Positions 8,457 to 19,827 of a DNA stretch of 48,980 nucleotides are shown here, piece after piece. The DNA is taken from the NCBI GenBank assembly GCA_023399455.1, contig JAEWPN010000250.1, forward strand, positions 1 through 48,980, written 5' to 3'. The DNA comes from Bacillota bacterium (GTDB lineage Bacteria; Bacillota; Clostridia; Lachnospirales; Lachnospiraceae). How positions within the stretch are numbered: position 1 is the first letter of the stretch; the number at the start of each line of letters is the position of its first letter. The notes beneath the pieces are model-generated. The model was not told where the DNA came from. It saw only the letters and a program-made list of their open reading frames with translations, and made no database searches. The position numbers and the translations under genes were made by a program.

Positions 8457-8537
8457 ATGATAGAGATACCGGAAAGTCTAACGTTGGCAAAGCAACTGAC
8501 CGATACGGTCAAAGGAAAGAAAATAGCAAAGAGATAA
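8457..8537 (+). pseudogene. 5' fragment of an Fpg/Nei-family DNA glycosylase gene, cut by the IME
   Basis: Starts MIEIPESLTLAKQLTDTVKG and continues to KKIAKR before a stop at 8535 supplied by the inserted element. This is the N-terminal strand and helix of formamidopyrimidine-DNA glycosylase relatives. GGAAGGAG precedes the ATG. The rest of the gene is found 10.5 kb away at 19075-19827. In classical Fpg the residue after Met is the catalytic Pro; here it is Ile, followed by Glu, as in a divergent clostridial subgroup, so base-excision activity of the intact ancestor is uncertain. Confidence 0.85.
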
Positions 8538-8540
8538 AAA

Positions 8541-8584
8541 GCGGTCAACGCATTTATCAAGAAAAGCCCGATTTTACAAGGGTT
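8541..8584. repeat. IME left terminus, inverted relative to right terminus
   Basis: The blocks GGTCAA, GAAAAGCCC and ACAAGGGTT occur here in order and recur, as the complement, at 19072-19029 with nearly the same spacing. These are likely the core-type and inner binding sites of the element's integrase. Confidence 0.65.
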
Positions 8585-8627
8585 ACAGATGTTGTGGAAT
8601 GTTGTCAAACGCACTGGAAATTACTCC

Positions 8628-8660
8628 GTGTGCAACACGTTTGCAACAGGTGTGCAACAA
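8628..8660 (+). repeat. Three tandem 11-base iterons near the IME left end
   Basis: GTGTGCAACAC, GTTTGCAACAG and GTGTGCAACAA follow one another with no gap. A fourth, ATGTGCAACAA, is at 19007-19017 near the right end. Their place inside both ends suits arm-type integrase or Xis sites. Confidence 0.65.
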
Positions 8661-8679
8661 AAATATCAGTAATAATTAT

Positions 8680-8719
8680 AGGACATTTTTCAGTGAAGCG
8701 ATTCGCTGGAAAGTGTCCT
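8680..8719 (+). terminator. Hairpin with U-rich tail at the element's left end
   Basis: AGGACATTTTTCA pairs with TGGAAAGTGTCCT (two wobble pairs) and is followed by TTTCTTTT. Reading on the plus strand it could stop host transcription entering from the glycosylase promoter. Confidence 0.45.
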
Positions 8720-8723
8720 TTTC

Positions 8724-8809
8724 TTTTACCCGAATCTCCATAATTAAATTGCTTCGCAATTTTCGTGCTACGCACTTCATAATTATGTCGATATTTCCTC
8801 GGGTGAAAG
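8724..8809. repeat. Nested three-way palindrome downstream of the integrase gene
   Basis: An outer stem pairs ACCCGA (8728-8733) with TCGGGT (8799-8804), extended by CTTT/AAAG. Within it CATAATTA (8739-8746) pairs with TAATTATG (8780-8787). Inside that are two hairpins: AAATTGC-TTC-GCAATTT and GTGC-TAC-GCAC. The region codes for nothing and lies between the iterons and the integrase stop. It may be a minus-strand terminator for int or a folded recombination or replication site. Confidence 0.55.
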
Positions 8810-8847
8810 TAAGGTCTCGCTTTGCTCGACTTTCCTTTCTTTCCTCG

Positions 8848-9903
8848 TCATATCTTATTAATCGCATCGACTAGCTCCTTAATATCAAAGTGAGTATAAA
8901 CTTTCTCTGTGAGTGTCATTGCTCCAGAGTGTCCTACAATTTTCTTGATAATCGTCTGATCCACACCAGCTTCCGCTAACATAGATATACAGGTATGTCT
9001 ACAACAGTGAGGTGTACGGTCAATCTTTAGCTGTTCCATTAATGGTTGGAAGTAGCTGTCATAATAGTTTCTGTACTTAAAGTGCTTACCGTCTTCCGTA
9101 TGAAGCAAGTATTCGCAGTCGGGTAAAGAATTAAACCATGACTGATAAAAGAGAAGAACTTTATCGGCAATGGGAACTTTACGGATACCATTTTCCGTTT
9201 TACTGCTGATTACATCAAAGTATTGTTCGTCTAGATGAACATTCTCTTTTTTCAAATCCAACAATTCAGAAATTCTAACTCCATTATACAAGAGCATAAG
9301 GATAATCTGATAGTACTTGTCCTCTTTCTGTTCCCAGATTCGGGCAATCTCGTCTTTGTCAAATTTGTTGCGGTCATACTTGTTTGGATTACGGTCTTTG
9401 TATTGAAGAATATCCACAAAAGAAGAATAATCCTTGTTACAAATATCGTTTTTTAATGCAAAGTCATAGAGCTGATTAAAGAGGACTTTTATTTTCTTTA
9501 GGGTTGGAAAATTCTTTCCGCAGGTATCAATGACTTCTTGCAAGTCAACTAGTTTCAAATCCTTAAATACTTTGTTGTAAAGTGAACTGCAAGCCTTATA
9601 GGATGCAATATAACCCTTTACATTGGATTCTGATACAGATGCATATTTTCGCTTCGACCACTCTTCGTAAACATCTGAAAAGGTCATCTTAGCAGCTTTG
9701 AGATCAAAAGGATTCTTATTATAGTCGGCAAGCATCTGTAATCCTTCTGCCTTGGTTGGGGCATACCCGATAATAATGTAATCCCTTACTTGTTTATCCT
9801 TCGCTTTGTCATAATGCCATCCAACGGACTTTTTGACAGCGTAAGGATTTCGGCGTTTTCCGGAAAGCTTTGTAACACTTCCGTAGCCATTTGGTAACTT
9901 CAT
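8848..9903 (-). CDS. int: Tyrosine recombinase (integrase) of the IME
   Basis: A 351-residue tyrosine recombinase. The N-terminal arm-binding region begins MKLPNGYGSVTKLSGKRR, a core-binding SAM-like domain follows (about 75-165), and the catalytic domain has Arg in GVRISELLDL, His-x-x-Arg in TPHCCRHTCISM, His in KIVGHSG and the nucleophilic Tyr in EKVYTHF. All six expected residues appear in order. I chose the ATG at 9903 because AAAGGA lies 8 bases before it; the ATG at 9912 overlaps that site. It sits at the left end of the element, as usual, and integrates into the glycosylase gene. Confidence 0.92.
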   Translation of the reverse strand: MKLPNGYGSVTKLSGKRRNPYAVKKSVGWHYDKAKDKQVRDYIIIGYAPTKAEGLQMLADYNKNPFDLKAAKMTFSDVYEEWSKRKYASVSESNVKGYIASYKACSSLYNKVFKDLKLVDLQEVIDTCGKNFPTLKKIKVLFNQLYDFALKNDICNKDYSSFVDILQYKDRNPNKYDRNKFDKDEIARIWEQKEDKYYQIILMLLYNGVRISELLDLKKENVHLDEQYFDVISSKTENGIRKVPIADKVLLFYQSWFNSLPDCEYLLHTEDGKHFKYRNYYDSYFQPLMEQLKIDRTPHCCRHTCISMLAEAGVDQTIIKKIVGHSGAMTLTEKVYTHFDIKELVDAINKI

Positions 9904-9977
9904 TCGCACCATTCCTTTCGTATATTTATTTGTAAAATCTGCAATGCAGAATAATACCGTAGTAAAAATAACTAGTT

Positions 9978-10409
9978 CTAATCATGAATGACCTTGGTAA
10001 CACTTGGTCTGATTGTCTTCCAGATATCATAATTGTCGGTTGTCTGACTACCAGATTCCAATAATTCTTTCATTGCCTGCCAGTCTTTTAGGAACTGGAT
10101 AAGGCTCTTATCTTCAAAGAAAATGCCAGGTTCTCCATTTAGGTCTCTTAATTTCACATCAAACACTTCATCAATAGCAAATAGTAACGGTAATACATCC
10201 CCATCTGCCTGAATATCAAATTCAGCAAGTGAATTAACGTTCACGTTTAGTGCATCTGCAATTTTTCTTAGTTGGTCAGGCTTTGGAATGTTCTTACCTA
10301 ATTCATATTTGCGGATAGCAACTTCATGTATCCCTGCTTTATCTCCCAACTCTTTTTGTGTTAATCCACGAAATGTACGGATTAACTTAATCTTTTTACC
10401 TGTAGTCAT
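9978..10409 (-). CDS. XRE-family HTH regulator of the IME
   Basis: A 143-residue protein with an N-terminal HTH_3 domain (GKKIKLIRTFRGLTQKELGD, then HEVAIRKYELGKNIPKPDQL) and a short C-terminal part of unknown role. GGAGGTCA precedes the ATG. It is divergent from the Xis-like gene, the classic arrangement for a repressor controlling excision and replication functions. The palindrome TACTATAGTA at 10476 and the strong promoter at 10534 are in the shared control region. Confidence 0.88.
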   Translation of the reverse strand: MTTGKKIKLIRTFRGLTQKELGDKAGIHEVAIRKYELGKNIPKPDQLRKIADALNVNVNSLAEFDIQADGDVLPLLFAIDEVFDVKLRDLNGEPGIFFEDKSLIQFLKDWQAMKELLESGSQTTDNYDIWKTIRPSVTKVIHD

Positions 10410-10475
10410 GATTGACCTCCATTCTGCCTTGATCAGGCATTTTCACAATGATTGATACATATGTTCGAACCTTGC

Positions 10476-10485
10476 TACTATAGTA
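10476..10485. promoter_or_regulatory. Candidate operator in the IME control region
   Basis: A perfect 10-base palindrome, TACTATAGTA, in the 208-base gap between the divergent XRE and Xis-like genes. Binding by the XRE protein is inferred from position only. Confidence 0.4.
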
Positions 10486-10533
10486 AGAATATAACATACC
10501 AAAATAAGAAAGTAAACATTAAATTTTAAACTA

Positions 10534-10562
10534 TTGACAGAGCGATAAAAGGTCTGTATAAT
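10534..10562 (+). promoter_or_regulatory. Consensus promoter for the IME xis/ATPase/mob genes
   Basis: Perfect TTGACA (10534-10539), 17-base spacer and perfect TATAAT (10557-10562). A small GAGCA/TGCTC hairpin (10577-10591) is in the 5' leader. Such a strong promoter needs a repressor, fitting the divergent XRE gene. Confidence 0.8.
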
Positions 10563-10617
10563 ACACAACATAAACAGAGCAAGAAATGCTCTAATAGAAT
10601 TATAGGAGGTGATATCT

Positions 10618-10860
10618 ATGGCGGAAATGATTTATCAAGTAGAACTTCCGCCATTTACCGGAAGGAATGTTCCAATCTCAGAGATTGCGAAAGCGATTGG
10701 AAAAGATCCACAGTATGTCAGGGTAGGGTTACAACAGGGAATTCTGAATTTCGGATATGTTTTGAAACTAGAAGATTCCAAAGAATTTAACTACTACTGC
10801 CCAGATCGAAAGGTCTGGGAAGAGACAGGATACTTCAGACCGGTAGAAATGGCAGTGTAA
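10618..10860 (+). CDS. Excisionase-like small DNA-binding protein
   Basis: An 80-residue protein with an N-terminal helix-turn-helix-like segment (VPISEIAKAIGKDPQYVRVG) and a C-terminal basic/aromatic part (FNYYCPDRKVWEETGYF). TAGGAGGTGATAT precedes the ATG; an in-frame GTG at 10609 overlaps this site and is less likely. Small proteins of this kind occupy the first position after the divergent repressor in many Firmicute IMEs and are probably recombination directionality factors. Function is inferred from size, HTH and position. Confidence 0.6.
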   Translation: MAEMIYQVELPPFTGRNVPISEIAKAIGKDPQYVRVGLQQGILNFGYVLKLEDSKEFNYYCPDRKVWEETGYFRPVEMAV

Positions 10861-10889
10861 CAACAGACGATGGAAAGGAGGTGGATGCC

Positions 10890-10919
10890 ATGGGGGAGAT
10901 AAATCAAAAAAAGTCCTAA
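10890..10919 (+). CDS. Nine-residue leader peptide candidate
   Basis: ATG at 10890 with an excellent AAAGGAGGTGGATGCC upstream encodes MGEINQKKS and stops inside the first arm of the next hairpin. It is too short to be an ordinary protein; a regulatory leader peptide or a fortuitous start are both possible. Confidence 0.35.
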   Translation: MGEINQKKS

Positions 10920-11008
10920 CCGTGCAGGGTCAGGACTAGAAGATAATTGTAGCGGAGCTAACGATTATCTTATCTCACAAGTATGATTATATCATTAGCT
11001 CCTGCTAC
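10912..11008 (+). promoter_or_regulatory. Structured leader with competing hairpins before the ATPase gene
   Basis: Three stems: AGTCCTAACC/GGTCAGGACT (10912-10937); AGATAAT/ATTATCT (10941-10970); and GTAGCGGAGCTAA (10949-10961) with TTAGCTCCTGCTAC (10995-11008). The second and third cannot form fully together. No U-tract follows, so translation control, an RNA processing site or a replication origin are options. Confidence 0.5.
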
Positions 11009-11050
11009 TGACAAACACAACATTTTGACAGATAACAGGAGGAAGTAGCG

Positions 11051-12052
11051 ATGAATGAAACAAAGACAGAATTAAAATTAATCCATATGGAAGATGTGAT
11101 ATCAAAAGAAGTCAGCTGGCTATGGTATCCATATATTCCATTTGGAAAGATTACGGTCATTGAAGGAGATCCAGGGGAAGGAAAGACAACCTTAATACTT
11201 AAGATAGCAGCATTACTTAGTAAAGGATTGCCACTTCCCTGTACGGATGATATTCCTTATGAGCCAATGGCAGTAATCTATCAGACAGCAGAGGACGGGC
11301 TGGAAGACACTATAAAGCCAAGATTGGAACGAGCAGGAGCTGATTGTTCGAAAATCCGAGTGATTGATGAATCGGAAAAGGAACTGACCATGAGTGATGA
11401 ACGACTGGAACAAGCAATTATTGAAACAAAGGCGAAGCTAATCATCCTAGATCCAATACAGGCATATATCGGAGCAACAGTGGATATGCACAGAGCAAAT
11501 GAAATCAGACCAGTATTAAAGCGGTTGGGAGTAATTGCTGACAAGTATCAATGTGCAATTATTCTTATCGGTCATATGAATAAGGCTTCTGGCACTAAAT
11601 CAACGTATCGAGGACTTGGCTCCATTGATATTCAGGCAACTGCTAGAAGTGTTCTTTTGGTAGCAAGGCTTAAAGATAAACCAAACATCAGAATTATGGC
11701 ACAAGATAAATCAAGTCTGGCACCAGCAGGAGATTCCATAGGATTTGAATTAACAGAAGAGAATGGATTTGAATGTATCGGAGCCTATGACATAACAGTA
11801 GATGAATTGCTAAGTGGACAGGAAGGTAGAGGGAAAAAGAAGTTCAATATAGCGATTTCTTTTATCACAGAGTATTTCAAGACAGTATCCGAAGTTTCTT
11901 CTAATCAGATTGAAGAAGATGCAGCCAGTCAGGGAATTAAATGGAATACCTTATTAGCGGCAAAGAAGAAATTGGGAATTGTAGCAGATAAGAGAAAGCA
12001 GTCGGACGGTAAACAATATTGGATATGGAGTATGCCGGAGAAAAGAGTTTAA
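11051..12052 (+). CDS. RepA-like RecA-fold ATPase (AAA_25) of the IME
   Basis: A 333-residue ATPase with Walker A GDPGEGKTTL (about residues 39-48), Walker B LIILDPIQAYIG (about 135-146) and the conserved GHMNKASGTKSTYRGLGS segment typical of hexameric RepA-like helicases. The C-terminal 75 residues look like a winged-helix tail (ISFITEYFKTVSEVSSNQIE). AGGAGGAAGTAGCG precedes the ATG. Such proteins support replication of plasmids and IMEs after excision. It precedes the relaxase in the same direction. Confidence 0.85.
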   Translation: MNETKTELKLIHMEDVISKEVSWLWYPYIPFGKITVIEGDPGEGKTTLILKIAALLSKGLPLPCTDDIPYEPMAVIYQTAEDGLEDTIKPRLERAGADCSKIRVIDESEKELTMSDERLEQAIIETKAKLIILDPIQAYIGATVDMHRANEIRPVLKRLGVIADKYQCAIILIGHMNKASGTKSTYRGLGSIDIQATARSVLLVARLKDKPNIRIMAQDKSSLAPAGDSIGFELTEENGFECIGAYDITVDELLSGQEGRGKKKFNIAISFITEYFKTVSEVSSNQIEEDAASQGIKWNTLLAAKKKLGIVADKRKQSDGKQYWIWSMPEKRV

Positions 12053-12139
12053 CAGTTTGTGTTCTAGGAAAAGCGGATTCTAAATTCTTGAAAAGAGTTT
12101 AGAATTTGCAATTCTAAAGAAACAGACGGTTAAACTCTT

Positions 12140-12235
12140 GCGGGTAATGATATAACCCTCGGAGAGCCCCCGCCGTTTTGGTTTGCCAAAACTGCTAGGG
12201 GGTTATCATCTTCGGCAAAGCTAAGATGATAACAA
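12140..12235 (+). other. Candidate oriT upstream of the MobV relaxase
   Basis: The 225-base gap before the relaxase holds a dense set of inverted repeats: GGGT/ACCC around 12142-12158, a CCCCC/GGGGG outer stem enclosing GTTTTGG-TTTG-CCAAAAC (12175-12192), and a perfect 11-base stem GTTATCATCTT/AAGATGATAAC (12202-12233). MobV family origins usually lie directly upstream of mob and contain such repeats. The nick site cannot be assigned. Confidence 0.55.
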
Positions 12236-12277
12236 GCACTTCTCCGGAGGAACAACAGATAAAGGAGGAGAAAATCT

Positions 12278-13639
12278 ATGGGTAGCGTTTCCTATTCAGC
12301 ACATATCAGCAATGGTAAAAGTGCAATAACAAGTAAGAGCAAATTACAAGGAGTGGCAAAGCATAATCTTCGTAAATATAAATCTGATGATTACAGTTCT
12401 AAAAATATTATACTACTAGAAGGAACCGAGAATCTATATCAGGATGTAAGAAATATTTACCAACAAGAATTTGATGAAGCCGTCCGAGAATACAACGAGA
12501 AACAAAAACGACCAGAAAGAAGAATTGATGATTATTTTGAACATGTTGCAAAACTGGATCAAGATATGGCGGTGGAAATTATCTTCCAATGTGGGGATAA
12601 GAGCTTCTGGGAAGAACATGAGGACAGTAAAGAAAGAATGTACAATGTTTACCGATATGTACTTTCCAGATTACAAGAGTATCTTCCAGATTTTAAAGTC
12701 GCCAATGCAGTAATCCACTTTGATGAAGCTAGTCCACATATGCATGTGGTAGGAGTTCCAGTATGGAGCGGTACGAAAAAAGGATTATCAAAGAAGGTTT
12801 CAAAACGAAATGTTTTTACACCTTCAAGCCTGTCAGTTGTACTACAAGATAAACTTCGAGAAGAAGCCAGATCCTGCTTTCGGTTTAACATCCATGAGAT
12901 GATTGGTGAAAAGAAAAAAGGCAGGAATTATGATTTATCAGTAGCAGAATATAAGGTACAGCAAGAACTTCTAAATCTTCAAAAGGTGGAGTCCCAAAAG
13001 CAACTACTAGAAACTTCCGTGGATTCAGCTAGACAGCAATTGAATGATTTGAAACTCCAATATGATGAAATGGATGAAGAAATTCAATCAGATCTGACGG
13101 ATAAAAAGAAATTGGTTGAATCGCTTGATACACAGTTGGAAACCAAAAAGTTGGTGCTGGAAATTGCAGATGATGAACTAAAACAAAAAAGTTCTTTTCT
13201 GGAATTATTAGATGTTGTAAAGCAAATGCTTCAATCATATTTACCACTACAACCTGACATAGAGGAATTTGCAAATACAGTGGAAAGGGGAGAAAACATA
13301 ACCACTGGAAATTCATTTCGAAGTTTTCTTTCCGCATTGGGACAGTTGCTATTGTCCTTTAAGGAAATGGTTCAAGAAGGTTTCTGCTGGTTCCCACTTT
13401 TAATGAGATGGAATACAAGTAAGGGAGAAGTTGCTCCAGTGTTTCGGGATGATTCGGGTGGATATAATTACAAGTTGGAAGGATTTCGGAATGTTGAGAC
13501 AAAGGTAATCTATAGGGCTGAGAATCTGAAAGAGGAAATTTGTTCAGATAATCGTATGGGGACGTTGGAACAGATACAGGGAAGTGTGGAAGTTCTGGAA
13601 AAGCAGATAAATAAGATTGAGAGAGAGTTTCGAAGATAG
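12278..13639 (+). CDS. mobV: MobV-family relaxase (Pre/Mob)
   Basis: A 453-residue mobilization protein. N-terminal motif I region has KHNLRKYKSDDY, followed by NIILLEGTENLYQDV, and motif III is HFDEASPHMHVVGVP (about 149-163), the HxDExxPHxH metal-binding signature of MobV. Residues about 215-300 are a long coiled coil. AAAGGAGGAGAAAATCT precedes the ATG. It would nick oriT and pilot the single strand into a helper conjugation channel. A hairpin without a U-tract (13648-13672) follows. Confidence 0.88.
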   Translation: MGSVSYSAHISNGKSAITSKSKLQGVAKHNLRKYKSDDYSSKNIILLEGTENLYQDVRNIYQQEFDEAVREYNEKQKRPERRIDDYFEHVAKLDQDMAVEIIFQCGDKSFWEEHEDSKERMYNVYRYVLSRLQEYLPDFKVANAVIHFDEASPHMHVVGVPVWSGTKKGLSKKVSKRNVFTPSSLSVVLQDKLREEARSCFRFNIHEMIGEKKKGRNYDLSVAEYKVQQELLNLQKVESQKQLLETSVDSARQQLNDLKLQYDEMDEEIQSDLTDKKKLVESLDTQLETKKLVLEIADDELKQKSSFLELLDVVKQMLQSYLPLQPDIEEFANTVERGENITTGNSFRSFLSALGQLLLSFKEMVQEGFCWFPLLMRWNTSKGEVAPVFRDDSGGYNYKLEGFRNVETKVIYRAENLKEEICSDNRMGTLEQIQGSVEVLEKQINKIEREFRR

Positions 13640-13791
13640 AGTATTTAGCCTTGGATATTAAAAATCCAGGGCTACTATACCGTACTTTTATATCTCATAA
13701 AGATAAAGGATGTTGTAGAACTGCTGGGTATAATTTGATATAATATAAAACAAAGAATAATAATTTACAAATTTGAGTTTTGAGACTATCC

Positions 13792-13983
13792 ATGGAATTT
13801 GTTGAATTTTTACTTTCTAGCATAAATAGAATTGCATACAAATTGAATCAGAATACATTGACAGAAGACAACTATGTGACTGCTGCTGGTGGTAAATATA
13901 ATCCAGAGAATTTTGACGAATATTTTGGAAACTTTAGTAGTGTATTAGAATTATGTGGAATAAAGATTAGAAAAAACAGATAG
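13792..13983 (+). CDS. Solo HNH-associated repeat protein
   Basis: A 63-residue protein whose body (NTLTEDNYVTAAGGKYNP, then FDEYFGNFSSVLELCGI) matches the pattern of the three repeats in the HNH protein 600 bases downstream (for example NTVSTKDYAENGKYKVQ and SRFESWSNVIKIAGL). So it is one free-standing copy of a homing-endonuclease-associated repeat, a probable DNA-binding unit. The ribosome site is weak; a TTG at 13780 is an alternative start. It may be a real small protein or a leftover of a longer nuclease. Confidence 0.5.
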   Translation: MEFVEFLLSSINRIAYKLNQNTLTEDNYVTAAGGKYNPENFDEYFGNFSSVLELCGIKIRKNR

Positions 13984-14001
13984 TTTGAGGAGGTAATTAC
14001 A

Positions 14002-14457
14002 ATGCAAAGAAAACCAGTTACAAAGAAATTGGTTGAACAGTGGTTGCAAGTGTATGAACAATATAAGAATAAATTAAAGCCTAATAGAAAAACAGGAAAA
14101 GAGATAGTCGAATATCTCATATCAAAATATCAAGTGGAATTAATTAATAATGAAGAAGCTAGTAAAGTGGTATATTTTAGTATAATGGAGAACGAATTTT
14201 TAAGAAATAAGTTATCTTCAATGGAAGAGCCAAAACCAGTTACATTCTGCTGGAGTAATAATGGAGAAAAAGTATTCATTGGAATAGATATGATTACAGG
14301 TTTTTATTATGTGGAAGATAACGAGAATTTATATGATGAATTATATGCTTTTAGGGGATTGGATGAAGCAGAATTAAATAACTATTATTGTGTAGCTGAA
14401 TATATTAATTGTCTAAAAAAATGTAATATGTTAGAAAGTGTACTAAATGATGTATAA
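14002..14457 (+). CDS. Hypothetical protein of the IME cargo
   Basis: A 151-residue protein with a strong GAGGAGGTAATTACA ribosome site. It begins with a basic helical region (PVTKKLVEQWLQVYEQYKNK) and continues with an acidic mixed alpha/beta C-terminal half (GEKVFIGIDMITGFYYVEDN). No membrane segment or catalytic motif is visible and I do not recognise the family. It lies between two HNH-repeat genes on the same strand, 18 and 51 bases away, so the three are probably co-transcribed. Confidence 0.6.
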   Translation: MQRKPVTKKLVEQWLQVYEQYKNKLKPNRKTGKEIVEYLISKYQVELINNEEASKVVYFSIMENEFLRNKLSSMEEPKPVTFCWSNNGEKVFIGIDMITGFYYVEDNENLYDELYAFRGLDEAELNNYYCVAEYINCLKKCNMLESVLNDV

Positions 14458-14508
14458 GAATGAATTCGTTGAAACATATTCTGAACTACAGACATATGGA
14501 GGCAGAGA

Positions 14509-15408
14509 TTGGAATATAAACTTAATAATTATAATAAAAATATAGATGAAAGTGAGCTTATTGCAGATTTAGTTAATGTTTCAAAAATACTTGGGAAAAG
14601 CCATGTTTCTCGTAGTGCATATGAAAAGCATGGAAAGTATTCGGCAACTCCATTTCTGAGGAACTTTGGATCATGGAGTAATGCTCTTATTAAATCAGGG
14701 CTAAGTGTGGAGCAGGATAAGAAGGAATTAATTAGAATTGAAAATACAGAGTTGATTATTGATATACAAAGAGTAGCGAAAAAAATTAGTAAAAACACAG
14801 TATCAACCAAGGATTATGCCGAAAATGGAAAATATAAAGTTCAAACATTACTATCACGATTTGAAAGCTGGTCAAATGTAATAAAAATAGCGGGACTGGA
14901 ATCAACTGGATTTTATATTCCTACCGATGAAGAACTGTTTCTTGATATAGAAAAGATTTGGATAAATAAAGGAAGTCAGCCAACTACTACAGATATAAAA
15001 AAAGGAATGTCTAAGTTTTCTTTAAACACATATTCACGTAGATTTGGTGGATGGAGAAATGCATTAATCTGTTTTTTGGAATATGTTGATAAAGATATTG
15101 AATATGAAGATGTACAAAAAAAGGTTGAGCAAAGTGTAAAAGAAAATAGTGACGTGTGTAAAAGTGTAGAGAGGAAAATTGAATGTAAACATAAAACATC
15201 AAGAGACATTAATGATAGACTTAGATTTAGAGTATTAAAAAGAGACTTTTTTAAATGTTGTGCATGTGGAGCATCTCCAGCAAAAGATCTAGCTGTACAG
15301 CTACATATAGATCACATAGTTCCTTGGGCAAAAGGTGGAGAAACGGTAATAGAAAATTTACAAACATTATGCTCTCAATGTAATTATGGGAAAAGTGATA
15401 TTCTGTAA
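14509..15408 (+). CDS. HNH endonuclease with three N-terminal DNA-binding repeats
   Basis: A 299-residue protein. Three related repeats (about 16-68, 80-130, 138-190) each hold a GKY/SKF-like turn and an FGSWSNAL-like end, as in HNH_repeat proteins. The C-terminal HNH domain has CCACG, then HIDHIVPWAKGG and LQTLCSQCNYGKSD, with the two CxxC pairs that bind zinc. The start is TTG at 14509 with GGAGG 8 bases upstream. It may be a homing-like nuclease or a defence nuclease; no intron or intein is seen around it. Confidence 0.8.
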   Translation: MEYKLNNYNKNIDESELIADLVNVSKILGKSHVSRSAYEKHGKYSATPFLRNFGSWSNALIKSGLSVEQDKKELIRIENTELIIDIQRVAKKISKNTVSTKDYAENGKYKVQTLLSRFESWSNVIKIAGLESTGFYIPTDEELFLDIEKIWINKGSQPTTTDIKKGMSKFSLNTYSRRFGGWRNALICFLEYVDKDIEYEDVQKKVEQSVKENSDVCKSVERKIECKHKTSRDINDRLRFRVLKRDFFKCCACGASPAKDLAVQLHIDHIVPWAKGGETVIENLQTLCSQCNYGKSDIL

Positions 15409-15536
15409 GAAGATGGAATTCGCTTAGAAATGATCAGGAATTTTTGAATTTGTATTCATGAATATTTCTTGCTACTGTGTGCATAATACTATATAATCGT
15501 AATTGGAACTATGTTTAAGCAAAGAATTAGTTTTGC

Positions 15537-15565
15537 TTGACACATTCCATACGATTTGGTAATAT
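15537..15565 (+). promoter_or_regulatory. Strong promoter of the IME non-coding RNA
   Basis: Perfect TTGACA (15537-15542), 17-base spacer, TAATAT (15560-15565). The -35 box overlaps the 3' arm of a perfect hairpin AAGCAAA/TTTGCTT (15517-15538), a possible operator. Confidence 0.7.
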
Positions 15566-15570
15566 AATAT

Positions 15571-15756
15571 TACAAGATACTTCGTGGTGAAGTATAACTC
15601 CCATGACGCTTGCGATATCAGGTTTGCAAGAAGAGGCGTTAAGCGGGGATTTATTCGGGAAGTCTGCACCCGTACCTGAGAGCCAATGGCGAAAAAGAAC
15701 GTAGTCTTAAAAGAAAAGTTCCGAAAAGGTCTGAGGTTATCACCTTAGGCCTTTTC
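15571..15756 (+). ncRNA. Structured non-coding RNA of about 185 nt, unknown family
   Basis: Bounded by the promoter at 15537 and the terminator at 15723-15756. No open frame with a ribosome site lies inside. Predicted stems by eye: ATACTTC/GAAGTAT (15577-15595); GACGCTTGC with GCAAG and GCGTT; CGGG/CCCG; and the terminator. It is G+C richer than the cargo genes around it, as expected for structured RNA. It ends about 60 bases before the PBECR4-like gene, so it may be a free RNA, an attenuating leader, or both. No family recognised. Confidence 0.6.
15723..15756 (+). terminator. Intrinsic terminator between the ncRNA and the PBECR4-like gene
   Basis: A 14-base-pair stem, GAAAAGGTCTGAGG with CCTTAGGCCTTTTC (two wobble pairs) and a six-base loop. 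The U residues are within and just after the 3' arm, so termination may be partial, leaving some read-through into the next gene. Confidence 0.7.
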
Positions 15757-15816
15757 TTGTGTATAGTAAAAAACAAGCGAATATGCTTTTGAAGTACAGG
15801 AATATTGGAGAAGAGA

Positions 15817-17085
15817 ATGTCAGAGAACAATAACTACCTGAAATATGCAAAGAGCAGAAAAAAGGCACATATAAATATTGAGTTACAACAAATTGCGGCG
15901 GAATATAGTAAGTTGCTTAATAAAAAATTTTGTTATTATTTTAGTGGTGGGGTTAAGATAGAGTTCCAGTTTAAAATGGAGAATTTCTATCATTTACTTG
16001 GATTTCACAAGTTGACAGATGTAACGGTAGTTCGAATGGTTGAGAATCATAAGTTGAAGAAAGAAGATTTTTTTAAGTATATCTATGATGGCAATATTAC
16101 TATGGAAACAACTAATTTTGATGGAATTGGTGACTTTGAAACAAACATTGTACATATTCAAGATACAAGCCGTAAATCTGATTTTGGAGAGGTTAAGGCT
16201 AATCGATTTCAATATTTTACTGAAAAGAATGTTATGGAAATGTTGTTGCGTGATCCAGTTATAGATTTTGAAAACGACGACTGTGATACTATTATTGAAG
16301 CTGATAAAATTTTCTTTAAGCATGTAACAGAAAAGGTTCGTAATTTGAACTTATTTATAGGCTTTGACGAATCTGAAAATCAGTATTATACCTCAACATT
16401 TTTCCTGGAGAAGGAAGGGAATAAGTTTAGAATCAAAATTTCTGGAGAACCACAGCCAGAGTTGAAAATATTAATGAGAAGAATAATAGATACTCAAAAC
16501 AATTCATTAATAGATTTTTGTGTGAAATGGGAAAATGTACGAACCGAATTTATAAGTGAGCCATTTTATAGAGGACAGAGTCGACTGAAATCTTGGATTA
16601 ATAGTAAGCATATATCGTCAAAAAAAGTTGTAGAAGAAATAAAATTACAGCAGGAGCTATTGCAACAGTATCAGAAAGATGTGGATGAACTGGCATTGCA
16701 ATATAATATTGTAAATCTGATTCAGCAACTTAACGAAGAAGAAAAGAAGATAGATACACAGCTTGCGCTTATGGAGTATGAGATAGATGCAGAAAATAAG
16801 ACGGAGATTGATACATATAGAGCTTTGGAAATTGGTACAATTAGAACTGATAAACTTAAAATGGAAGCAAAGACTGAAGCATTGACTAACAAGCTTCAAA
16901 AGCATGAAAAACATCTTCCAGATATTATTGAACTTGAAGTGCAGGAGGCGTTGTTAGTTTATCAAGCATGTTTACCGGATATGAGTCTAGAGCGTGAACG
17001 GGTAAAAGAACTGCTACAGCAGTATGATATTTTTAATGAGAACGTGTTGCCAGAGGAATTTTTGAAGAGATATAAGAGTAGATAG
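15817..17085 (+). CDS. PBECR4-like putative nuclease with C-terminal coiled coil
   Basis: A 422-residue protein. The segment FYHLLGFHKLTD (about 55-66) with DFFKYIYDGNI and RFQYFTEKNVMEMLL resembles the PBECR4 domain, a predicted nuclease fold of the Barnase-EndoU-ColicinE5-RelE group found in phages and mobile elements. Residues about 75-240 fit the rest of that domain; about 265-385 are a long coiled coil. The ATG at 15817 has GGAG 6 bases upstream; a TTG at 15805 overlaps it. It follows the ncRNA and terminator directly. The family call is from memory and no catalytic residues could be fixed. It may be a toxin or an anti-phage effector. Confidence 0.5.
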   Translation: MSENNNYLKYAKSRKKAHINIELQQIAAEYSKLLNKKFCYYFSGGVKIEFQFKMENFYHLLGFHKLTDVTVVRMVENHKLKKEDFFKYIYDGNITMETTNFDGIGDFETNIVHIQDTSRKSDFGEVKANRFQYFTEKNVMEMLLRDPVIDFENDDCDTIIEADKIFFKHVTEKVRNLNLFIGFDESENQYYTSTFFLEKEGNKFRIKISGEPQPELKILMRRIIDTQNNSLIDFCVKWENVRTEFISEPFYRGQSRLKSWINSKHISSKKVVEEIKLQQELLQQYQKDVDELALQYNIVNLIQQLNEEEKKIDTQLALMEYEIDAENKTEIDTYRALEIGTIRTDKLKMEAKTEALTNKLQKHEKHLPDIIELEVQEALLVYQACLPDMSLERERVKELLQQYDIFNENVLPEEFLKRYKSR

Positions 17086-17114
17086 ATGACAAAATGGTGT
17101 TATTTAAATATAGG

Positions 17115-17190
17115 TTTTGACTAATCAGTAGAGATGCTCTGAGACTTTATGAGACGTCGTGGGTAAATCACACGTAACTAACATTGATGA
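17115..17190 (+). repeat. Degenerate internal copy of the IME right-end sequence
   Basis: TTTTGACTAAT, then CTGAGAC-N10-GTCGTGGGT (17139-17164), then an ACGTA...AACA..ATGA string. The same blocks are at 18929-18939, 18972-18997 and 19003-19020 just inside the true right end. The N10 spacing is identical; the distance from the first block differs by 21 bases. Confidence 0.55.
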
Positions 17191-17294
17191 CATAGAATCC
17201 AGTATTCATGCGGTTCTACAGTTTGCTTACAGCTATCAAAGAGATAAGAATTACTGCAACGCAGGACATCTCAGAACAATTCAAAACAATTCAG

Positions 17295-17329
17295 AACCTC
17301 TCAGGATATTTGTCTTGGGAGGTTTTTTT
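17295..17329 (+). terminator. Intrinsic terminator
   Basis: AACCTCTCA pairs with TGGGAGGTT (one wobble) and is followed by seven T residues. It closes transcription from the PBECR4-like gene before the WYL module. The rest of the gap 17086-17459 holds the relic right-end copy and no gene. Confidence 0.75.
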
Positions 17330-17459
17330 GGTATGTTTTGTTTGATAACTGTGGTAAAATGATAAAAGGTATAAAAAATCAGAAAAAGAAAGCAATAACT
17401 TATAATAATGCCAAACAGATGGCAATATTAGTAGTGTATCATAATATAAGGTGAAGAAA

Positions 17460-18158
17460 ATGAGATTACAAAGACTTTTAATGATTGTATTTTATTTGAA
17501 AATGCATAATTCAGCAACCATCACAGAGTTGTCAAAATACTTAGAGGTTTCTAAAAGGACAATCAGTAGAGATGTAGAGATGTTAAGGACAGCTGGAGTT
17601 GAAATTGAGAGCAGAATTGGAACTGCTGGGGGATATTTTCTTAAGGAGGATTTTTCCTTTGAAAGTATTCTTTTTAGTAAATCTGAGCTACAATCTATGT
17701 TATTAGGGACACAGTTTTTATTTCAGTTTAAAGATACAGAATTTGCAAAAGAGGCAGAGGTATTATATGACAAAGTTTCAAAGATATTAGAAAGTAATAT
17801 AGAGTCAAGTAATCAATCTAAGAAATTTGTATTAATAGATACTGAAAGTAGATTAGGTATAGATTGTGATATAAATATGACGTTAAAGCATATCGAGAAT
17901 GCCTATGATAGACATAAACTTTTGTTTGTAGATTATAAAAGTATGCTGTGCAGCAAGTTTTCAACTTCAGGTTTTGTAGCTCCATATGGATTAATTAATA
18001 AGTTGGGACATTGGTATCTGGTTGGATATTGCCATGAACATAAAGAGTACAGAATATTTAATATTGTATTTATTCAAAAGATTTATATAACGCAGGATTC
18101 TTTTGAAATAGATAAATCATTTAATTTAGATGTTTTTTGGGAAACTCAAAAAAAATAG
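17460..18158 (+). CDS. WYL-domain transcriptional regulator of the IME cargo
   Basis: A 232-residue YafY-type protein: N-terminal winged HTH (LSKYLEVSKRTISRDVEML, about 25-43) and WYL domain (VAPYGLINKLGHWYLVGYC, about 176-194). The ATG at 17460 follows AAGGTGAAGAAA; the GTG at 17451 is inside that site. It heads a three-gene group with a Cys-rich mini-protein and an MGMT-like protein, which it probably controls. It resembles in layout, not closely in sequence, the WYL gene at the window's left edge. Confidence 0.85.
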   Translation: MRLQRLLMIVFYLKMHNSATITELSKYLEVSKRTISRDVEMLRTAGVEIESRIGTAGGYFLKEDFSFESILFSKSELQSMLLGTQFLFQFKDTEFAKEAEVLYDKVSKILESNIESSNQSKKFVLIDTESRLGIDCDINMTLKHIENAYDRHKLLFVDYKSMLCSKFSTSGFVAPYGLINKLGHWYLVGYCHEHKEYRIFNIVFIQKIYITQDSFEIDKSFNLDVFWETQKK

Positions 18159-18179
18159 AAAAGGATAGGAGGTATTAAT

Positions 18180-18335
18180 ATGGAAATCAAGTACATATCA
18201 AATGGTGAAGAAGGTAAAACTTGTTTGGACTGCAAACATTTTGAAAGAGATGTGAATATGGAAGGCGTTGGTAAATGTTTTGGCAATGAAGTGAAAGCTG
18301 AAGGAAGTTGTAATTATTTTGAATCAAAAGAATAG
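18180..18335 (+). CDS. 51-residue Cys-rich protein, probable zinc-binding
   Basis: Small protein with four cysteines in a CLDCKHF, KCFG, SCNYF order, suited to one zinc or iron site. GATAGGAGGTATTAAT gives it an excellent ribosome site 22 bases after the WYL gene. Similar mini-proteins occur in clostridial mobile elements; function unknown. Confidence 0.65.
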   Translation: MEIKYISNGEEGKTCLDCKHFERDVNMEGVGKCFGNEVKAEGSCNYFESKE

Positions 18336-18422
18336 AAATAGTAACAGAACATGCGTGGCTGTTGAGATACAAGGAATTGTTAATATTTGATGGAATGAGG
18401 ATATCAAGGGAGTGAATTTCGG

Positions 18423-18890
18423 ATGGCAAAAAAGACATATAATGAGAAATTGATGGATAGTAAGGACATGCCTAAAATAGTTGAAATTGCAGATCCAAGA
18501 GAAATCTTAAGGCATGGTGGCAAAAAACTCTTAATAGCACCACCATTAGTTTATGATGAAATCATGAAAAGTGTGCCAGAGAAAATGATTATTACGTCGG
18601 AGGCTATTAGAGCATATTTGGCAAATAAATTTGGTGCACATAATACATGTCCTTTAACAGCAGGTATTTTTATTAACATTGTGGCACACGCATCTTCTGA
18701 ACGTGTTTTAGATGAAACACCATATTGGAGAACATTAAAAAAAGATGGTGAACTTAATGAAAAATATCCAGAAGGTATAGATGGACAAAAACAGCGTCTG
18801 GAATCCGAGGGTCATGTAATTATACAAAAAGGAAAAAGGTTTTTTGTTAAAGATTATTTAAAATATATGTTTGATTTAAGTTCCATGTAA
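18423..18890 (+). CDS. MGMT-like (alkyltransferase-like) protein without the active-site PCHR motif
   Basis: A 155-residue protein resembling proteins annotated as MGMT family. It has IITSEAIRAYLANKFGA and CPLTAGIFINIVAHA where methyltransferases recognise DNA, followed by PYWRTLKKDGELNEKYPEG and LESEGHVIIQKGKRFFVKDY. The usual PCHR cysteine motif is absent; the only cysteine nearby is in NTCPLT. It may bind alkylated DNA without repairing it, as alkyltransferase-like proteins do, or act as a different DNA-binding protein. AAGGGAG lies before the ATG. Linked to the WYL and Cys-rich genes. Confidence 0.6.
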   Translation: MAKKTYNEKLMDSKDMPKIVEIADPREILRHGGKKLLIAPPLVYDEIMKSVPEKMIITSEAIRAYLANKFGAHNTCPLTAGIFINIVAHASSERVLDETPYWRTLKKDGELNEKYPEGIDGQKQRLESEGHVIIQKGKRFFVKDYLKYMFDLSSM

Positions 18891-18928
18891 AAGAAAAAAA
18901 CAAAAGTCGATGTGTATCGCACATATCT

Positions 18929-19073
18929 TTTTGACTAATATTTGTATGGAATATAGTCAAACTGAAACGTCCTGAGACGTAATAAAATGTCGTGGGTGTG
19001 AAACGTATGTGCAACAATGAATACTACAAACCCTGTATTTCTGGGCTTTTCAAGCTCTCAAACGGTTTGACCG
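18929..19073 (+). repeat. IME right terminus
   Basis: Contains TTTTGACTAAT, CTGAGAC-N10-GTCGTGGGT, the iteron ATGTGCAACAA (19007-19017) and the inverted blocks AACCCTGT, GGGCTTTTC and TTGACC that mirror the left end. Host glycosylase codons resume at about 19075. Confidence 0.65.
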
Positions 19074-19074
19074 G

Positions 19075-19827
19075 AGAGTAGAGACCGGGCATACGAAGCA
19101 TTCCTTTGCCTGGTATACCGACGATCCGCAGGAGTATGCCGGAAAGCTTCAGGGAAAGACCGTAGGAGAAATCCATGGAATCGGAAGCATGGTGGAGATG
19201 GAAGTGGAGGACTACAGGTTTACGGTGGGAGATGGAACAAATATAAGGTATTTTGAAAAGGGAGAAAAGCTTCCCGAAAGATATCAGATGAGGATAACCT
19301 TTGAGGACGAAAGCTCTCTCATATGTACAGTCCAGATGTATGGTTCGATGTTTCTGTTTCGGCCAGGGGAATACGATAATTTTTATTATCTCGTGGCGAA
19401 GGAAAAGCCCATGCCCGGAACGGAAGGCTTCGATTACCCGTATTTCCAATCGCTAAAAGAGGAGCTGAGCGGGAAGCTTTCCGCAAAGGCGATGCTCGCT
19501 ACCGAGCAGAGGATTCCGGGACTTGGCAACGGCGTACTGCAGGACATCCTTCTGGAGGCCGGAATCCATCCGAAGCAGAAAATCGGCAGTCTGCGCGAAG
19601 TGGATTGGAAGCGTTTATATACGGCAGTTTCGAATGTTCTTCGGGAGATGACGGAAAAGGGCGGAAGAGATACTGAGAAAAATCTCTTCGGACAGGCCGG
19701 AGGATACCGCACTAAGCTCAGTAAGAAGACACTTGGAGGTCCATGTCCATATTGCGGTAATCCCATACAGAAGACGGCTTATCTGGGAGGAACGGTATAT
19801 TTTTGTTCTCAGTGCCAGCGGGCTTGA
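19075..19827 (+). pseudogene. 3' fragment of the Fpg/Nei-family DNA glycosylase gene
   Basis: Frame continues from GTAGAGACCGGG (19078) through HTKHSFAWYTDDPQEYAGKL to the stop at 19827, about 249 codons. The helix-two-turn-helix region has EQRIPGLGNGVLQDIL and the C-terminal zinc finger is CPYCGN...YFCSQCQ. Added to the 26-codon 5' piece this gives about 275 residues, the usual Fpg length. A truncated product could start at the ATG at 19189, but it would lack the N-terminal catalytic residues. The intact gene would be restored by precise excision of the element. Confidence 0.85.

Follow-up and report, generated by a model that had tools for sequence, protein, structure and literature searches.

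A folded RNA upstream of a PBECR4-family gene: a candidate type III-like toxin–antitoxin module with putative RNA mimics in phages

Inside a mobile insertion in the window (the whole 48,980-nt stretch of DNA analysed), a promoter, a compact structured RNA, an intrinsic terminator and a gene for a PBECR4-family protein, a predicted RNase, follow one another on the same strand (Table 1). We think it likely that this is a type III-like toxin–antitoxin module whose antitoxin is a single-copy, folded RNA free of repeats, and that phages carry mimics of that RNA. Past transcription from the one promoter, which would make the RNA, we infer each step. Most transcripts would end at the terminator, leaving the RNA in excess, and the mRNA for the PBECR4 RNase would come from read-through. 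The RNA, with its pseudoknot, would bind the RNase, block it and so neutralise its toxicity. When the supply of RNA drops, whether through loss of the element or through a shut-off of transcription in phage infection, free RNase would halt growth. In the same layout, the RNA motif drum (RF02958) would serve many short PBECR4 proteins, and the RNAs that some SPbeta-like phages carry alone near tRNA genes would act as decoy antitoxins.

Table 1 Features of the module, of the insertion that bears it and of one related phage locus; positions are those of the window unless another locus is named.
Feature	Position	Strand	Basis or remark
10.5-kb insertion bearing the module	8528..19071	.	missing from genome G001
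Tyrosine integrase in the insertion	8848–9912	-	
AAA ATPase in the insertion	11051–12052		
MobV-type relaxase in the insertion	12278–13639		
Sigma-70-type promoter, TTGACA-17-TAATAT	15537..15565	+	same order before the RNA in L001 and L002
Conserved RNA core (RNA-A), 138 nt	15575..15712	+	alignment A3, pair counts, model R1
Intrinsic terminator, 15 pairs, then a weak T tract	15723..15756	+	sequence scan
Gene for a 422-aa PBECR4-family protein	15817..17085	+	N-terminal predicted BECR RNase, C-terminal long helices
DUF3800-I RNA (RF02969) in phage G398	8100–8207 of L044	-	76 bits, cut-off 44.2; overlaps tRNA by 10 nt

The promoter hexamers, TTGACA at 15537–15542 and TAATAT at 15560–15565, are separated by a 17-nt spacer with TG-N at its end. 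A scan for promoter-like sites returned 12, compared with 9.4 expected from shuffles, and we therefore weigh this promoter by its position and conservation and not by its rarity. The near-consensus promoter proposed in an earlier, sequence-only reading of this DNA holds on both counts, since the same arrangement is retained ahead of the RNA in the two other loci where RNA and gene can be read together, a Lachnospiraceae MAG (L001) and Blautia luti (L002). That reading also had the RNA end in a terminator of 14 pairs; the terminator is present, and its pairs number 15. A search for a further promoter between the terminator and the gene found none, so the PBECR4 gene should be expressed by read-through. 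The gene start is taken as the ATG at 15817, with a TTG at 15805 as an in-frame start further upstream. The order of promoter, structured RNA, terminator and PBECR4 gene is real and recurs across the gene family (window, L001 and L002). As a layout, it is that of a type III toxin–antitoxin locus, with an RNA upstream of an RNase toxin-type gene, a terminator between them and a single promoter.

Genome G001 is 97–98% identical to the window on both flanks of the insertion that it lacks. The insertion, whose ends fall within 8470–8560 and 19030–19130, seems to split a reading frame that continues in G001 and that, by eye, we take to resemble a DNA glycosylase gene. No clear direct repeat was found at the insertion ends, the longest being 10 nt. 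Immediately 5′ of the module (14509–15408) lies an HNH endonuclease gene with three homing-endonuclease-associated repeats (PF18780, PF01844).

RNA-A is made up, in order, of hairpin P1, stem P2 enclosing hairpin P3, hairpin P4, a pseudoknot strand, small hairpin P5 and GAACGUAGUC. The P3 loop UCAGGU pairs with ACCUGA in the strand after P4, forming the pseudoknot. The segment 15571–15762 folds at −61.1 kcal/mol (z = −3.5), and none of 200 shuffles was equally stable. Covariance model R1 scores RNA-A of the window at 172 bits, the window being one of the five sequences on which it was trained. Searches of the RNA for tandem repeats, and for direct repeats of at least 10 nt, returned none, in agreement with the repeat-free RNA described at the outset from the sequence. 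Across the window no Rfam family reaches its gathering score, an unrelated housekeeping RNA included, and neither the abiF RNA model (RF03085) nor a search for tRNA genes gave a match. At E up to 10, Rfam yields three chance-level matches within 15400–15900, drum not among them.

In both L001 and L002, the readable gene loci besides the window, the RNA sits just upstream of the gene. These loci came from a profile scan with a single peptide pattern that covered one genome per species over 84,980 species. Among the window, L001 and L002, the RNA core is 83.9–89.1% identical pairwise, more than the gene shows at any codon position (60.7–69.0%, 73.6–79.4% and 41.9–48.2% at positions 1, 2 and 3), a DNA-level comparison that covers three loci out of the window and the 68 homologues of its protein. 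Alignment A3 joins these three loci with two phages, G398 and G399. Its 29 pairs are paired in 143 of 143 cells and six pairs changed on both sides, in a structure drawn on the same five sequences, which favours the fit. Four of these two-sided changes fall in P1, one in P4 (GC, AU, UA) and one in P5, so that covariation is visible across the loci. The pseudoknot is invariant in all five sequences, and A3 therefore neither supports nor opposes it. Pair types were unexceptional, 240 of 500 shuffles reaching as high a value (a shuffle count and not a probability). The RNAalifold consensus of A3 contains P1 and a 51–56/108–113 pairing; P4 as drawn is absent from it.

Under stricter filters, the RNA-A model had no match in 397 genomes of the window's family and 391 of its class, which we take from L001 and L002 to be Lachnospiraceae and, probably, Clostridia. 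As a positive control, the search recovered four of four known carriers; it matched neither of the two nearest genomes. In plasmid and phage collections, neither the window protein nor the RNA had a match, with short chance matches only at E up to 10.

The window protein gives no match of its own to PF18813 (PBECR4) at E ≤ 1, and we group it with PBECR4, a predicted RNase, through its relatives. A homologue 87% identical to it (P0003) matches PF18813 at 3e-13, the one match among eight homologues scanned, the seven others having none. PF18813 is precomputed for 42 of the 68 homologues found by protein search, and short genes retrieved with a profile of the long family themselves match PF18813. 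The P0003 match places the predicted BECR RNase region at about residues 23–231. Across 36 aligned sequences (the window protein with 35 of its 68 homologues), H59 is kept in all 36 and residue 194 is threonine in 31 and serine in five. These residues match the published PBECR catalytic configuration, which, in the accessible part of PMC5512222, comprises a histidine in the N-terminal helix and a serine or threonine in strand 4. In the AlphaFold model (mean pLDDT 89.2), H59 lies in helix 56–60 and residue 194 in strand 189–197, and the C-terminal third of the protein consists mostly of long helices. The N-terminal resemblance to PBECR4, first noticed from the sequence, is borne out by the P0003 match, the precomputed assignments and the two kept residues.

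A fold search of the PDB with the AlphaFold model gave no significant match, HigB2, presumably a member of the RelE family, appearing weakly at rank 39; the BECR fold assignment therefore rests on the sequence family. A second structure aligner aligned mainly the C-terminal helices and found no convincing relative in the PDB. The top match of a BFVD fold search was A0A4D6ASU0 (8.8e-5). In Pfam and PADLOC, where a model for each of these families is not assured, the protein matched none of ToxN/AbiQ, CptN and TenpN. A profile scan of viral contigs with one peptide pattern found no relative of the window protein.

The promoter–RNA–terminator type of layout is common to short PBECR4 genes in the window's family, often with drum upstream. 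A candidate type III-like or RNA-controlled effector, as the sequence-only reading had it, is thus supported with one amendment: the window gene is a branch of a larger set of RNA–PBECR4 modules, in many of which the RNA is the orphan motif drum. A profile search of the 397 family genomes found matches at E ≤ 0.001 in 22 genomes, 20 of the 22 matches lying in open frames of 129–262 aa and two in shorter frames with a stop; in one locus (L022) the match is confined to the C-terminal helices. Ten short proteins were scanned, one of them (L042) from a separate search, and all match PF18813, eight above the gathering score and two just below.

Terminators ending 5–70 nt before the start were found at 16 of 23 PBECR4 loci versus 4 of 86 other open reading frames. 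The 23 loci, which include the window, L001 and L047, were chosen after a first terminator scan, so that this is a controlled count on a chosen set and not a blind test. The seven loci in which the scan found none are L004, L006, L012, L014, L015, L016 and L046. In three of these (L004, L006 and L016), a hairpin and T run can be seen by eye just after the assumed start codon, and their starts may therefore be miscalled. Loci with cut, fused or short frames were excluded from the test (L007, L018, L021, L022, L024 and L034); among them, L007, L024 and L034 have a terminator upstream and L018 and L021 have none. RNA-like stretches that Rfam does not match precede other PBECR4 genes (L003–L006, L042 and others). 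The stretch conserved in L003–L006 (GTGGTCGTTCGG...) shows a possible loop pairing, GGTTC/GAACC.

Drum is reportedly a motif of Weinberg 2017, and we know of no function for it. Among 30 loci scanned with Rfam it occurs at 11, each time directly 5′ of a PBECR4 gene, which is broken in L007. The linkage also holds in reverse. Searches for drum found 25 RNAs in 21 of 250 genomes of the family set and 20 RNAs in 15 of 291 genomes of the class set, one of the latter below the gathering score (L106, which was counted). A PBECR4 gene was scored when, on the strand of the RNA and no more than 900 nt downstream of it, the profile matched at E < 1e-4; RNAs were counted if they had at least 200 nt of downstream sequence, which omitted L069 and L111. 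By this rule, 29 of 43 drum RNAs have PBECR4 downstream on the same strand (19 of 24 in the family set and 10 of 19 in the class set), with an open frame of at least 150 aa in 23 cases and shorter pieces only in six. Among ten short proteins used as seeds for the profile, three belong to family-set drum loci (L067, L076 and L078) that match by construction; the class set is free of these seed loci and has the lower rate. PBECR4 was found upstream of or antisense to drum in none of the 43, a count that is partly short-sighted because the upstream sequence of some loci was shorter than 900 nt. Two viral contigs also have drum followed by PBECR4, with a match of about 106 aa in one (L090) and in two frames in the other (L091).

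For 14 of the 43 drum RNAs, no PBECR4 gene was detectable downstream. Four of these (L107–L110) are near-identical RNAs from one genome, and L105 is their relative. That genome (G635) also carries a fifth drum with a PBECR4 gene; its sixth lies where a contig ends. In L101, the drum RNA is followed after about 210 nt by a predicted gene for a uracil-DNA glycosylase instead of PBECR4. One flanking gene was scanned at each of eight other PBECR4-less drums, and these shared no common partner.

Drum and RNA-A have a pseudoknot in the same place, which suggests that they represent two versions of a single design. In an alignment of 31 drum RNAs (A5), the pseudoknot joins the first large hairpin, through its loop, to the strand just 3′ of the second hairpin; of the six pairs, 90.9% of cells are paired and five changed on both sides. 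None of 500 shuffles reached the covariation score of the whole structure. Two further measures were unexceptional, two-sided pair changes being as high in 55 and pair types in 118 of 500 shuffles, which are counts and not probabilities. The kinship of drum and RNA-A rests on the shared layout only, as the drum model has no match to RNA-A.

RNA-A also occurs apart from the gene, in two IMG/VR contigs, G398 (69.5 kb; 160.6 bits) and G399 (122.8 kb; 132.5 bits). Neither record, each of which may be a fragment, contains a match to PBECR4 at E ≤ 1, and tblastn with short PBECR4 proteins over the stretches around the RNA found none. The G399 terminase is about 40% identical to those of SPbeta phages, and a large protein of G398, which we take to be a relative of the SPbeta RNA polymerase, about 43%. 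In G398, the DUF3800-I RNA, a tRNA-Thr, RNA-A and a second PBECR4-type RNA follow one another, the last sharing 73% identity, across 128 nt, with the stretch 5′ of the PBECR4 gene of L042. In G399, a recombinase-like gene precedes RNA-A and tRNA genes follow it. The two phage copies of RNA-A share no downstream gene. G399 was compared with six phage records related to it by terminase; of the seven, it alone has RNA-A, which therefore looks like an accessory element.

Possibly the DUF3800-I RNA of G398 serves as a decoy against a different RNA-controlled system. Inspection by eye shows no DUF3800 gene among the open reading frames of the 9-kb stretch of L044. A search of viral contigs with one RNA pattern gave no match; matches to other patterns (L026–L029, L031 and L035) were set aside as unlike RNA-A in appearance. 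Under lenient scoring, phage loci L048, L053 and L054 show weak matches to other PBECR4 upstream stretches (E 7e-5 to 9e-3). A GOLLD RNA lies among tRNA genes in L048 (33357–33847, minus strand), from a 176-kb faecal phage record (MT835469.1).

The phage RNAs could instead be remnants of full RNA–PBECR4 modules that lost the gene, and not selected decoys. We consider this doubtful, though by no means negligible; it bears on the phage part only and is compatible with an antitoxin role. It would fit the broken PBECR4 genes that adjoin drum RNAs in L072 and L086, and the presence of RNA-A in only one of the seven phage records. However, the P4 stem stays paired in G399 through a two-sided change, and in G398 two kinds of PBECR4-type RNA stand back to back with a DUF3800-I RNA round a tRNA, an arrangement more in keeping with a collected set than with decay.

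In a second reading, the RNA is a leader attenuator or riboswitch that acts only in cis, senses a ligand, a tRNA or a phage signal and so controls read-through. A terminator does separate the RNA from the gene, the compact, conserved, pseudoknotted fold is riboswitch-like, and the accessible part of PMC12373285 discusses a riboswitch-like mode beside the antitoxin role for AbiF. Yet a pure leader attenuator fails to explain phage RNA-A, whose copies have neither PBECR4 nor a common downstream gene (one is flanked by a tRNA and a second RNA, and tRNA genes follow the other), and drum RNAs persist where PBECR4 is missing or broken; we regard this reading as improbable. Least probable of all, with only a slight chance in our estimate, is that the RNA is a required cofactor or guide that gives the protein its position or specificity and is not an inhibitor: one RNA family is linked to one protein family, and Cas13 reportedly arose from RNA-controlled AbiF (PMC12373285, accessible part), but the RNA core hardly varies and lacks a variable segment fit for guiding, and phages would presumably hardly profit from a cofactor of a host nuclease.

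Beyond the inhibitory RNA antitoxin that we favour for the window, we lean, with less confidence, towards a large and so far unrecognised class of RNA-antitoxin/PBECR4-RNase systems in the window's class (probably Clostridia), which would give drum its function, and towards SPbeta-like phages that carry sets of several RNA mimics by their tRNA genes. Among the open-licence literature searched, including the accessible parts of PMC5512222 and PMC7657543, we found no link of drum to PBECR4 or to a toxin, which may nevertheless have been reported elsewhere; the name PBECR4 was absent from it. If the proposal is right, an orphan structured RNA family gains a function, RNA-antitoxin systems come to include a further RNase superfamily, with RNAs that are compact and free of repeats, and natural counter-defence RNAs of phages become available as a set that can be tested. 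Orphan RNAs that neighbour tRNA genes in phages would be worth examining as antitoxin mimics, the DUF3800-I RNA among them.

The type III systems ToxIN, CptIN and TenpIN have the same gene order as the window, and the module would work like a type III system. As far as the accessible sources describe them, ToxIN and CptIN also share with it an RNA pseudoknot and an RNase toxin, the latter predicted here. TenpIN has both features too. ToxI, however, has multiple repeats, whereas the window RNA has none and the window protein groups with PBECR4; as antitoxin repeats were looked for and not found, we do not class the module as ToxIN-type. Drum resembles RNA-A in its 5′ hairpin, in a further hairpin with a loop that pairs just after the one that follows, its CGAAA-type segment, its terminator and its place before PBECR4. 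It differs in that its model does not match RNA-A at E ≤ 10 (15400–15900), and the gene behind RNA-A is about 220 aa longer.

The PBECR domains of polyvalent phage proteins belong to the same predicted RNase clade as the window protein and share its catalytic residues; they differ in that no RNA partner is described for them in the accessible part of PMC5512222. The closest tested precedent for the module would be AbiF with RCd22 (abiF motif RF03085) of C. difficile, which likewise comprises a promoter, a structured RNA, a terminator and an RNase toxin, an arrangement known here from the sequence. According to the part of PMC12373285 available, the RNA there neutralises in cis and in trans by direct binding. 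That toxin is an HEPN-type Abi_2 protein and not PBECR4, and its RNA contains short abiF motifs, of which the window has no match. Phage-borne RNAs have precedents as well: a cyanophage with an abiF RNA is reported in the accessible text of PMC9964418, which does not present that RNA as a decoy, and pseudo-ToxI of phage PhiTE mimics the RNA antitoxin of ToxIN (PMC3475682, in part). Like pseudo-ToxI, the RNAs of G398 and G399 would be phage-borne mimics of an RNA antitoxin, putatively so here; pseudo-ToxI is repeat-based, whereas these are folded and compact and occur in SPbeta-like phages, one of which carries several kinds.
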